NCBI RefSeq assembly: GCF_000814845.2
Contig: NZ_CP010431.2
Location: 3,038,001 to 3,102,000 of the forward strand
Origin: Pandoraea sputorum
GTDB taxonomy: Bacteria > Pseudomonadota > Gammaproteobacteria > Burkholderiales > Burkholderiaceae
DNA length: 64,000 nt
Direction: 5' to 3'
Made by a program: the position numbers and the translations under genes. Positions within the stretch are counted from its first letter, which is position 1, and every line of letters starts with the position of its first letter. This document shows, piece by piece, positions 16,334 through 19,645 of this stretch. The notes beneath the pieces were generated by a model. That model was not told the DNA's origin. It was given only the letters and a program-made list of their open reading frames with translations, and ran no database searches.

Positions 16334-17245
16334 TTATGAGGCAGCGCGGCTCGTCGACGGTAGCGCCTTCGGCGGCTTACATACCAACCAGACGGCCAGC
16401 GCGATAAAACATCCGCCGAAGAAGTGAGCCATTGTGACGGCTTCGTTCAGGAACAATGCGCCCCAGAGCACGCCGAACGGCGGAATCAGGAAAGTGACGG
16501 TCAGCGAGCGCAACGGTCCGAGATCGGCGATAAGACGGAAGAACAACATATAGGCGACGGCGCTGCACAGGAAGCCGAGCGCTGCCATGGCGGCCCACAC
16601 GCCACCGGTCACGGGTCCGGGAATGCCTGACGTCGCCGACACGTAGCCAAAGAACGGCAGCAGGACGACGGCCGCGCCGAGTTGGCTGCCGAATGCCACG
16701 AGCTTCGCATCGAGACCCCCGCGCTCGGTGATCCAGCGCTTGGTCAGGTAACCGGCAAGGCCGTAGCACGACGTGGCGACGAGACACGCCAGCGCCCCCA
16801 TCAGAACGGGTCCGGACATCGTGACCGGGCCGGTGCGCGTGAGCACGGCCACGCCGATCAGCCCCAGCAGCACGCCCAGACTCTTGGCACCCGTCAGACG
16901 CTCACGGAAAAACAGCGCGCCGATCACAACGCCCATCAGCGGCGTGGTGGCATTGAGAATCGCGGAATATCCGGCGGGAAGCACGCGCGCGGCAAGGCAA
17001 TACATGACGAACGGAATGCCCGAATTGATAACGCCGAGCACCATCGCGGCCCCGAGCAACCCTTTGAATTCCCAACGAACGCGCATCGCCAGCAGAATGA
17101 CCGCTAGGCCGATAGCCCCGAGCGTCACGCGAAAGAACGCGGTAGGCAACGGCCCGAGCGCAGGCACGATGATGCGCATGAAAAGAAAGCTGGCTCCCCA
17201 GATGGCGGAGAGCGCCAACAAACGGGCGATGTCGGATGAACGCAT
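16334..17245 (-). CDS. EamA (DMT superfamily) transporter
   Basis: 303 residues, with about ten hydrophobic segments arranged as two EamA repeats. LLALSAIWGASFLFMRII opens repeat one and ALACLVATSCYGLAGYL opens repeat two; FRVTLGAIGL and TPLMGVVIGALFFRERL are typical. Probably a metabolite or drug exporter of the inner membrane; substrate unknown. The frame stays open for another 109 codons upstream, but that part is hydrophilic and unlike the family, so I start at the ATG at 17245. Monocistronic. Confidence 0.85.
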   Translation of the reverse strand: MRSSDIARLLALSAIWGASFLFMRIIVPALGPLPTAFFRVTLGAIGLAVILLAMRVRWEFKGLLGAAMVLGVINSGIPFVMYCLAARVLPAGYSAILNATTPLMGVVIGALFFRERLTGAKSLGVLLGLIGVAVLTRTGPVTMSGPVLMGALACLVATSCYGLAGYLTKRWITERGGLDAKLVAFGSQLGAAVVLLPFFGYVSATSGIPGPVTGGVWAAMAALGFLCSAVAYMLFFRLIADLGPLRSLTVTFLIPPFGVLWGALFLNEAVTMAHFFGGCFIALAVWLVCKPPKALPSTSRAAS

Positions 17246-17484: not shown

Positions 17485-18297
17485 ATGACGTATCGAAATT
17501 TGCAGGCGCTCTCTCATCGAACGACTCTCCACCCGATTCCCCGATCCCGTTTGCAATATCGCCCCCCCGCAAGCACGAACGTCCCGCGAGGATACGACCT
17601 GTGGAATCACTATGAAGTCAGTTGGATGGACATGCACGAGCGCCCCCAGATCGCCGTTGTGGAAATGGTGATTCCGTGCGACTCGCCTTACACACTGGAG
17701 ATGGCAGATGCACAGCGCTATTTCCTTGCGCTTCGAGAGTGTCGTTTCGAATCGCCGGAAGCACTGGAATCGCATATCGCGTCGGAGTTGTCGCGATCTC
17801 TTCAGGCCTATGTCCTCGTGCGTAGCACGCCGGTGCGCCAGGCGGTGCGAACGACCGCCGCATGTGGGCCGGTAGCGCGATCGCTGGATACTGAGCCCGT
17901 TGGCGTGATCCGAGGTGGCGTCGATGCCCATCTGTTGCGCATCCATCGCGACGCCACGACCTTGCCAGCGTCACCGGCCCGCGAATGTCTGACCTCGGAT
18001 CTGTTGAGCGTACGATGCCCGCTTAGCGGGGGCGTCGACTATGGCACGGTATGGTTTGACTACACGGGCCTGCCAATTTGCTCACGTTCGCTTATGGCGT
18101 ACGTTCTCTCGTTTCGGGATAGCGAGATGTACATCGAGCAATGCGTGGAGACGCTCTTTGCCGATATCCTCACGCAATGCACGCCGTCACGCCTGTCCGT
18201 TCGCGCACGCTTTACCCGGCGCTACGGGCTTGACATCAATCCCGTACGCTCAACGCACGGCGTCGCCATCACCAATCAACGCACCGTTCGCCAATGA
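17485..18297 (+). CDS. QueF-like protein lacking the NADPH motif and active-site His
   Basis: About 270 residues (a further ATG at 17449 would add 12). Tunnelling-fold protein clearly related to the long form of preQ0 reductase QueF: YDLWNHYEVSWMD, then LTSDLLSVRC, SFRD...EQCVETLF and RFTRRYGLDINPVRS. Kept (this numbering): Glu72, nucleophile Cys178, Asp185 seven residues later, Glu218. Changed: the QueF motif ESKSFKLY reads EMADAQRY, losing both lysines; the His before Glu218 (His229 in E. coli) is Ile217; QPDWG is GVDYG. So it may bind 7-deazaguanine nitriles but is unlikely to be an ordinary NADPH reductase. Four bases before yhhQ. Confidence 0.8.
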   Translation: MTYRNLQALSHRTTLHPIPRSRLQYRPPASTNVPRGYDLWNHYEVSWMDMHERPQIAVVEMVIPCDSPYTLEMADAQRYFLALRECRFESPEALESHIASELSRSLQAYVLVRSTPVRQAVRTTAACGPVARSLDTEPVGVIRGGVDAHLLRIHRDATTLPASPARECLTSDLLSVRCPLSGGVDYGTVWFDYTGLPICSRSLMAYVLSFRDSEMYIEQCVETLFADILTQCTPSRLSVRARFTRRYGLDINPVRSTHGVAITNQRTVRQ

Positions 18298-18301
18298 CCG
18301 T

Positions 18302-19105
18302 ATGACTGATCTTGCTTCGACGCTGTCTGCCGAGAGCCTCGTTCCGTCGCAACAGGCGACACACATCACACCGGCCGTGATTGTGCTGGCCATCGGCTTT
18401 GTCAGTTTTCTCCTGATATCGAATGCGCTGGGCGCGCGCGTGTGTGAAGTCACGCTGCCATGGACCGTCGCGGGCGAGCCGTTCCGGCTCACGTTTTCTG
18501 CCGCGCTGATCAGTTTCCCGTTCGCCTATCTCTTCTCGTCGGTACTGACCGAGGTCTACGGTTATCGCATCAGCCGGGTTGTGATCTGGAGCGGCCTTGC
18601 CGCAAATCTCGTGATGCTTGTATTCCTGTGGTTGACGGCCATGCTGCCGACCGACCCCACATGGGCCGCCCAAACCGGCTTCACGGACGAGGTACAACGT
18701 CACTGGTTCGAGTCGATCGCACACATGTTCCTGGCGTCGGTCTCGGCCTGTCTCGTGGGTGAATTCGCCAACGCAGCAACGCTGGCCCGTATGAAGATCG
18801 CGATGCACGGCAGACTGGCGAGCCTTCGATTCATCGTCGGCAGTGCGTTGGCGGCATTGCTCGATTCCGTCGTCTTCGTGGTTGTGGCGTTCGCTTACGT
18901 GCTCGACCTCGACGCCATGACGCGCATGGCCGGGCTCGAATTCGTCTTCAAATGTGCCCTGCAATGGCTCGTTTTGCCGATGACGGTCGGCCTCGCCCGA
19001 TGGCTCAAACGCACAGATGGTATCGATCATTACGACATCGGCACGTCGCTGAACCCGTTCGGCTTTCGCTTGTCACGCACGAAAGCCTCGGGTAGTCGTC
19101 AATAG
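18302..19105 (+). CDS. yhhQ: Queuosine precursor transporter, YhhQ/QPTR (VUT) family
   Basis: 267-residue inner-membrane protein with about six hydrophobic segments. Family YhhQ imports 7-deazaguanines such as preQ0 and preQ1. Seen: VSFLLISNALGARV at helix one, the FSSVLTEVYGYRISRVVIW motif, ACLVGEFANA, and ALQWLVLPMTVGLARWLK near the end. The start ATG at 18302 is four bases after the QueF-like stop, so the pair is surely one transcript. Salvage of queuosine precursors is the likely pathway. Confidence 0.88.
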   Translation: MTDLASTLSAESLVPSQQATHITPAVIVLAIGFVSFLLISNALGARVCEVTLPWTVAGEPFRLTFSAALISFPFAYLFSSVLTEVYGYRISRVVIWSGLAANLVMLVFLWLTAMLPTDPTWAAQTGFTDEVQRHWFESIAHMFLASVSACLVGEFANAATLARMKIAMHGRLASLRFIVGSALAALLDSVVFVVVAFAYVLDLDAMTRMAGLEFVFKCALQWLVLPMTVGLARWLKRTDGIDHYDIGTSLNPFGFRLSRTKASGSRQ

Positions 19106-19120: not shown

Positions 19121-19645
19121 CTACGCTGCGTCGGCGTCCCGTGCCCGGCGATAGGCGATCCAGTCGCCGCCCGGGATACGAGGCAACTGGCTGACGGCTG
19201 CTGCATCCACCGGATAGACGATGCACGCGTACGTGGCACCGGCGCACGCGACGTCCAGCATCTCTCGCACGAATAGGCCTGCCTCGCCCGGATAGACGGC
19301 TTCGATTTCGTCGAGCACGGGGATAAGCGCCGCATCTATCCGGTAGACGTCACCGGTCACGCGCTCGTCCATGCCTACGCCCAACACCATACCCGGATAG
19401 CTACCAAAGTCGTAAAGCTGCCCGCCTAGCGTCGAAGTGCCGACGTACGTCGGTGCCGCAATACCGTGACGCTCCGCCGCGCGCATCATGTCGTTGATCT
19501 CTCCCGCGCGCAACGTCCCGTAGACGAAGACGTACACGGCATCGGTTCGCGCATCGACCGGCACGGATTCGACAGACACCGCTGGAGCAGAGGGCGTAGC
19601 GGGCGTAACAGGCGCATCGGGCGCGAGGTTAGGCATGGCATGCAT
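19121..19645 (-). CDS. Gamma-glutamylcyclotransferase/AIG2-like protein
   Basis: 174 residues. The core VYVFVYGTLRAGEINDMM carries the YGTLR substrate-loop signature, and DEIEAVYPGEAGLFVREM includes the conserved glutamates of the fold. Family members cyclise gamma-glutamyl peptides or related amines, but many have no known substrate. About 36 N-terminal residues are Pro/Ala-rich and probably disordered. Convergent with yhhQ (15-base gap) and divergent from the AraC gene; no functional link to either is evident. Confidence 0.8.
   Translation of the reverse strand: MHAMPNLAPDAPVTPATPSAPAVSVESVPVDARTDAVYVFVYGTLRAGEINDMMRAAERHGIAAPTYVGTSTLGGQLYDFGSYPGMVLGVGMDERVTGDVYRIDAALIPVLDEIEAVYPGEAGLFVREMLDVACAGATYACIVYPVDAAAVSQLPRIPGGDWIAYRRARDADAA

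Follow-up and report, generated by a model that had tools for sequence, protein, structure and literature searches.

The window analysed here, 64,000 nucleotides of the Pandoraea sputorum contig NZ_CP010431.2 (positions 3,038,001 to 3,102,000; genome G000), carries two adjoining genes for a QueF-family protein, here called QueF2, and a relative of the queuosine-precursor transporter YhhQ:

17485..18297, + strand: QueF2, a bimodular member of the QueF family (tandem T-fold) whose NADPH motif is degenerate (270 amino acids; ATG at 17485, stop at 18295-18297)
18302..19105, + strand: relative of the queuosine-precursor transporters YhhQ/QPTR (COG1738, Vut_1; 267 amino acids, ATG at 18302)

The QueF2 frame is intact and lies four bases from the yhhQ start on the same strand (17485-18297 and 18302), as an earlier reading of this DNA (the original prediction) had it; some orthologues have the start of yhhQ overlapping the stop of QueF2. 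QueF2 has the domains of a bimodular QueF (PF14819 and PF14489, a tandem T-fold) and scores 189.2 bits against the NCBIfam QueF equivalog TIGR03138, below the cut-off of 293.45. The transporter scores 103.3 bits against PF02592 (Vut_1), above the cut-off of 27.2, and is alignable with E. coli YhhQ. As judged from its residues, the loss of ordinary NADPH reduction in QueF2 is well supported.

According to the available excerpt of PMC5372742, the Cys of QueF attacks a nitrile and NADPH reduces the resulting thioimide, which is very stable before NADPH binds; the QueF motif holds NADPH, and sequences missing any of the listed features are classed as non-QueF. An excerpt of PMC5485725 names an Asp as the general acid/base common to QueF and the archaeal QueF-like enzymes (QueF-L). 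Residue numbers of QueF2 were tied to E. coli QueF by alignment with its annotated locus, which gives the equivalences E72=E89, A74=K91, Q77=K94, C178=C190, D185=D197, I217=H229, and E218=E230. The positions that matter are as follows:

17698..17715, + strand: EMADAQ (residues 72-77), aligned with the NADPH motif E-S-K-S-h-K of QueF, of which Glu72 remains and the two lysines are gone
18007..18009, + strand: Ser175, Lys or Arg in other bimodular QueFs (119 of 119)
18016..18018, + strand: Cys178, the thioimide-forming Cys by alignment (E. coli Cys190)
18037..18039, + strand: Asp185, the general acid/base by alignment (E. coli Asp197)
18121..18123, + strand: Ser213, His in other bimodular QueFs (116 of 119)
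18133..18138, + strand: Ile217, in the position of E. coli His229, and Glu218, which anchors the base (E. coli Glu230)
18142..18144, + strand: Cys220, equivalent of V. cholerae Cys236; kept in 15 of 15 orthologues

These positions were compared between 20 QueF2 rows, representing 19 clusters (the protein of the window appears twice, as P0002 and P0003), and 119 other bimodular QueFs taken from two database searches, one of which gave the best 120 of 403. The comparison bears out the replacement of the motif by EMADAQ and extends it to four near-invariant positions: K74, K77, K/R175, and H213 are found in none of the 20 QueF2 rows, versus 118, 119, 119, and 116 of the 119 others. The residues of the first chemical step are retained, again as originally read. 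Cys178, Asp185, Glu218, and Arg246 (V. cholerae R262) are present throughout both sets, and Glu72 is found in 20 of 20 QueF2 rows and 118 of the 119 others. Measured against the published descriptors, QueF2 has the residues corresponding to Cys55/194, Asp62/201, and Glu97/234 (Cys178, Asp185, and Glu218, in 20/20 rows) and lacks the motif E(S/L)K(S/A)hK. Cys220 aligns with V. cholerae Cys236, discussed as the partner of the catalytic Cys in a protective disulfide (PMC5372742, in the excerpt). QueF2 differs from the QueFs of E. coli and V. cholerae in having lost the motif lysines, K/R175, H213 and, for the most part, the catalytic His, and in falling far below the TIGR03138 cut-off.

The catalytic His was originally said to be Ile, which holds for the window and not for the family as a whole: position 217 is Ile in 12 and His in three of the 15 Pandoraea QueF2 genomes (Ile 15 and His 5 across the 20 rows). 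The three His-keeping genomes, together with P0021, fall outside the Ile clade in the tree, which suggests that the cofactor lysines were lost before His217. In the database QueF P0026, which is counted in this comparison, Thr replaces the first motif lysine and Gln the catalytic His (EATSLK, FQEDC); this may mark another change of function, independent of that in QueF2.

A second comparison, of the 15 Pandoraea QueF2 genomes with 59 canonical sequences (P0021 and P0026 excluded), shows what has replaced the lost residues. M73, A76, R84, R177, and S213 are invariant in QueF2 (15/15) and occur in fewer than 10% of the canonical sequences; Arg78 is present in 14 of the 15, and a segment YVLVRxTPVRQAVR is conserved among QueF2s. 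These arginines leave room for an enzyme that continues to reduce nitriles through a rebuilt cofactor site (e.g., with Arg78, Arg84, and Arg177 for the phosphate, or with NADH) and that turns imported preQ0 into preQ1. The retained Arg246, the His217 of three genomes, and the canonical QueFs of the sister QueF-YhhQ pairs described below are consistent with such an enzyme, as is a phage QueF-family protein that was predicted to be a QueF-L and still gave preQ1 in phage DNA (PMC6884629, as excerpted). Against it stand the loss of all four near-invariant positions, the further loss of the His in 12 of 15 genomes, and the other QueF match in every Pandoraea genome, which leaves the need for a second reductase unclear. 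A rewired reductase is rather unlikely.

The archaeal archaeosine synthase QueF-L (PDB 5k0p and 5jyx) resembles QueF2 in its T-fold and in keeping the Cys and Asp (PMC5485725, in the excerpt). The original prediction had accordingly offered an archaeosine-type amidation, in which ammonia adds to the thioimide as in QueF-L. This suggestion fared badly. QueF-L works on preQ0 in tRNA, and only the thioimide of preQ0-tRNA, not that of free preQ0, reacted with ammonia, as far as the excerpt of PMC5485725 goes. The partner that such a route needs appears to be missing: the search for TGT in G000 gave a single match, beside queA, and no second TGT or DpdA-like match. Furthermore, QueF-L chains in the PDB have about 100 residues and a single T-fold, whereas QueF2 is a two-domain protein of 270 amino acids. 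With QueF-L dependent on preQ0 in tRNA and a single TGT in G000, next to queA, archaeosine formation ranks lowest among the catalytic options, and an amidine synthase of this type is very improbable. Archaeal QueF-L also lacks the NADPH motif. QueF2 is a variant within the QueF superfamily that lacks the QueF motif, scores below the QueF equivalog cut-off, and departs from QueF-L in size.

The QueF2 frame is closed in 15 of 15 genomes. For 102 of 105 pairs (the other three being saturated), the ratio of nonsynonymous to synonymous change (dN/dS) is 0.137 at the median and at most 0.253. Synonymous distances are large in these pairs; the four close pairs give 0.135-0.213. QueF2 is under purifying selection and is not decaying, as the original prediction had argued from the intact frame. 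A decaying duplicate without function might be seen in the patchy distribution (an intact copy is absent from 17 of 32 genomes, with fragments in two of those, G003 and G014) and in the faster evolution of QueF2 relative to its EamA neighbor, which counts against functional retention. The closed frames, the low dN/dS, the QueF2-specific conserved residues, and the fully kept Cys/Asp/Glu set speak to the contrary, so that decay, already disfavored by the selection result, is hardly credible.

Across Pandoraea, intact QueF2 is found in 15 of 32 genomes at a single syntenic site between two constant flanking genes:

16334..17218, - strand: divergent left flank, which we take from its sequence to be an EamA-type transporter (identified by synteny; start codon approximate)
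19121..19645, - strand: right flank, presumably a gamma-glutamylcyclotransferase-like (GGCT-like) gene (identified by synteny)

The contig of G025 stops short of the right flank. Of the 17 genomes lacking an intact QueF2, 16 have both flanks, and the remaining one (G018) has no EamA match. A yhhQ gene follows QueF2 in all 15 genomes; it is full length in 13, truncated in G008, and cut by the contig end in G025. G015, which lacks QueF2, also has a YhhQ at this site, and three other genomes show only weak Vut_1 matches, at other places. The co-occurrence was examined on an EamA tree of 27 genomes, from which G018 (no EamA match) and G024, G026, G028, and G030 (EamA frame not retrieved), all without QueF2, were excluded; YhhQ was scored as present in G008 and G025. 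On this tree QueF2 changes state at least 10 times and YhhQ at least 9 times, and in seven independent QueF2 contrasts YhhQ changes in the same direction in six, in the opposite direction in none, and not at all in one (p 0.031). The QueF2 rows of the database search are from Pandoraea wherever named, and among named genomes 11 Pandoraea loci matched at 62-94% identity, after which identity fell to 41%. A third conserved gene of the module was considered and rejected, as the Pandoraea flanks are constant and are also there without the pair; beside the accessory pairs of other genera, the widest other cluster reaches 6 of 15 loci, a figure from crude gene picking in which some clusters are antisense frames. 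Eleven bases separate the start of the GGCT-like gene from the start of a divergent gene, presumably of AraC type.

The window contains no tRNA genes. Neither the window nor 20 loci (12 accessory pairs and 8 from Pandoraea) gave an Rfam riboswitch match at the gathering score, and riboswitch control of the pair was rejected accordingly. A defense or phage role was likewise rejected, as PADLOC gives no match for QueF2 or YhhQ. A PHROG QueF-type family (“GTP cyclohydrolase”) does match QueF2, which tells only that relatives of QueF occur in phages.

QueF2 and YhhQ exist alongside the usual queuosine genes. A genome search found in G000 a canonical queF with an intact motif, FolE, QueC, the single TGT match with a QueA match about 0.2 kb away, two PTPS-family (queD-type) genes, and a TIGR00276 match, which we take to be QueG. 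TGT, QueC, and canonical-type QueF matches occur in 32 of 32 Pandoraea genomes, and the QueF was canonical in the 31 whose letters were checked (G029 excluded). Because G000 has normal queF, tgt, queC, queA, queG, and queD-type genes, the pair looks like an accessory module, additional to an apparent de novo pathway, and queuosine synthesis does not obviously need it. Two other regions have 7-deazaguanine genes. Near gyrB in G000 (G000:C1, L077:5894-8600), a second QueC-like gene adjoins an OGG-like gene (PADLOC matches), with presumed PfkB-like/deoxyribosyltransferase-like and GHKL-type ATPase-like genes nearby; the region resembles parts of QueC/OGG defense operons, and a second QueC match is also present in G002, a genome without QueF2. 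In G030 (L076:7000-19000), about 10 kb of DNA contains another QueC, proteins that we take to be DGQHR-like, and weak matches of the TGT/DpdA-like and Vut_1 types; the region has the look of a DNA 7-deazaguanine (dpd) island, here in a different Pandoraea.

Outside Pandoraea, accessory QueF-YhhQ pairs were sought in 398 genomes of the family (taken as Burkholderiaceae from named members) with P0021 as query. The 15 accessory loci come from genomes with two QueF matches, one of them outstanding by score; they are not a census, and several other two-match genomes left at least one QueF match without a neighbor check. All 15 loci (e.g., in Trinickia terrae) resemble the QueF2 pair in having an adjacent YhhQ in the same orientation and a second, canonical QueF in the genome. 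They differ in their QueFs, all 15 of which keep the motif ESK(S/T)xKLY and the catalytic His (FHEQ) and are about 36-41% identical to QueF2. The window YhhQ shares with E. coli YhhQ/QPTR (COG1738) the Vut_1 domain and an alignable FPF...G...R region, and it aligns with the accessory YhhQs; those of QueF2 and accessory pairs have in common a C-terminal segment, ID(H/Y)YD...NPF, that is missing from E. coli YhhQ. The QueF2-YhhQ pair looks like a derived form of the accessory queF-yhhQ salvage pair, and the simplest reading is that such a pair entered Pandoraea and that its QueF then lost reduction. Of the new 7-deazaguanine pathway without reduction that was originally proposed, the loss of the standard NADPH reductase, as read from sequence (TIGR03138, 189 versus 293 bits), and the travel with a transporter still stand, whereas the pathway itself lacks support in the form proposed, in view of the normal queuosine genes of G000 and the resemblance to accessory queF-yhhQ pairs.

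On balance, QueF2 appears to be neofunctionalised: it would convert a preQ0-type nitrile to a thioimide and leave this unreduced, as part of an accessory module with YhhQ. In the proposed mechanism, YhhQ would import preQ0 or a close 7-deazaguanine, whose base QueF2 would hold through Glu218 and Glu72. Cys178, helped by Asp185, would then attack the nitrile to give a covalent thioimide, to judge by the retained residues. An unreduced thioimide is to be expected because QueF2 has the first-step residues without the usual cofactor motif; lacking an NADPH site, it would either pass the thioimide to a nucleophile other than hydride (water or an amine) or retain preQ0 in covalently bound form. The first of these, with turnover, is given a slight preference over a held complex, as a guess.

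Several observations weigh against this interpretation. The phage protein PMC6884629 describes makes any loss of reductase activity deduced from sequence uncertain. The pair is dispensable, 17 of 32 genomes being without intact QueF2, and its link is not absolute: G015 has YhhQ at the site without QueF2, and the YhhQ frame beside QueF2 in G008 stops prematurely. The joint loss of QueF2 and YhhQ is support for a link, not proof, and is weaker evidence than it appears because adjoining genes can go in one deletion. In the tree QueF2 forms one clade (100/100), but it groups only weakly (80/68), under a midpoint root and with a stem of 2.03, with 14 of the 15 accessory QueFs and seven other rows. 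The window YhhQ scores 50.0 bits against the equivalog TIGR00697, marginally below the cut-off of 50.95; members of the YhhQ/QPTR family differ in substrate according to the excerpts of PMC5372724 and PMC11130926, which bears on the substrate predicted here.

Alternatively, QueF2 might be a non-catalytic partner, a covalent or non-covalent receptor of preQ0 (or an analogue) that regulates the canonical QueF (QueF1) in a mixed dimer, or the transporter. The base-binding and Cys set kept while the cofactor site was lost, the overlap of yhhQ start and QueF2 stop in some orthologues, and the stability of the thioimide before NADPH binds (PMC5372742, as excerpted) are all compatible with a receptor. 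Yet Asp185 and the protective Cys220, both fully conserved, would be dispensable for a simple binder, and a purely regulatory role is unlikely.

The composition of QueF2 raises a further possibility. Lysine is wholly absent from 12 of the 15 orthologues, with at most two in any of them, and arginine is raised (loci: the window and L059-L072); over the aligned core, the mean number of lysines is 6.1 in the 15 accessory QueFs and 9.6 in 31 Pandoraea QueF1s. Thioimides react with amines, and an intermediate that is exposed and amine-reactive would give a reason to avoid lysine. A plain rival is drift from lysine to arginine under GC bias, which can explain part of the scarcity. Lysine-free composition as proof of amine chemistry is weakened by two observations: 4 of 375 picked genes of at least 240 amino acids (from the window and 40 G000 stretches) have no lysine, three of the four being hydrophobic, and the GGCT-like neighbor (174 amino acids) has none either (0 or 1 in its 15 orthologues). 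The gene picking used a rule on GC content at the third codon position (GC3) that covered 66% of bases and misses QueF2 itself (GC3 minus GC2 = 0.16), so genes of this make-up are under-sampled in the count. A bolder proposal is a third T-fold nitrile enzyme that passes the preQ0 thioimide to an amine or water (rather than to hydride or to tRNA-targeted ammonia), has its own importer, makes an undescribed bacterial 7-deazaguanine derivative, and is poor in lysine to avoid self-amidination; as a whole this proposal is speculative and more likely wrong than right.

In the literature searched, outside which most subscription journals lie, no QueF of this type is described in titles or abstract openings, and no paper was found that treats Pandoraea and queuosine together. 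The annotation of QueF2 as a reductase is probably misleading, the sequence pointing to some other activity, and the database name “NADPH-dependent reductase” on some members (P0009, P0017) is unsupported by sequence. QueF and QueF-L send one Cys-nitrile thioimide to different products. A lineage that has kept the thioimide half of this chemistry and removed the hydride half offers a direct test of what sets the fate of the thioimide, and QueF2 may lead to a 7-deazaguanine metabolite not seen before or to a sensor of preQ0.
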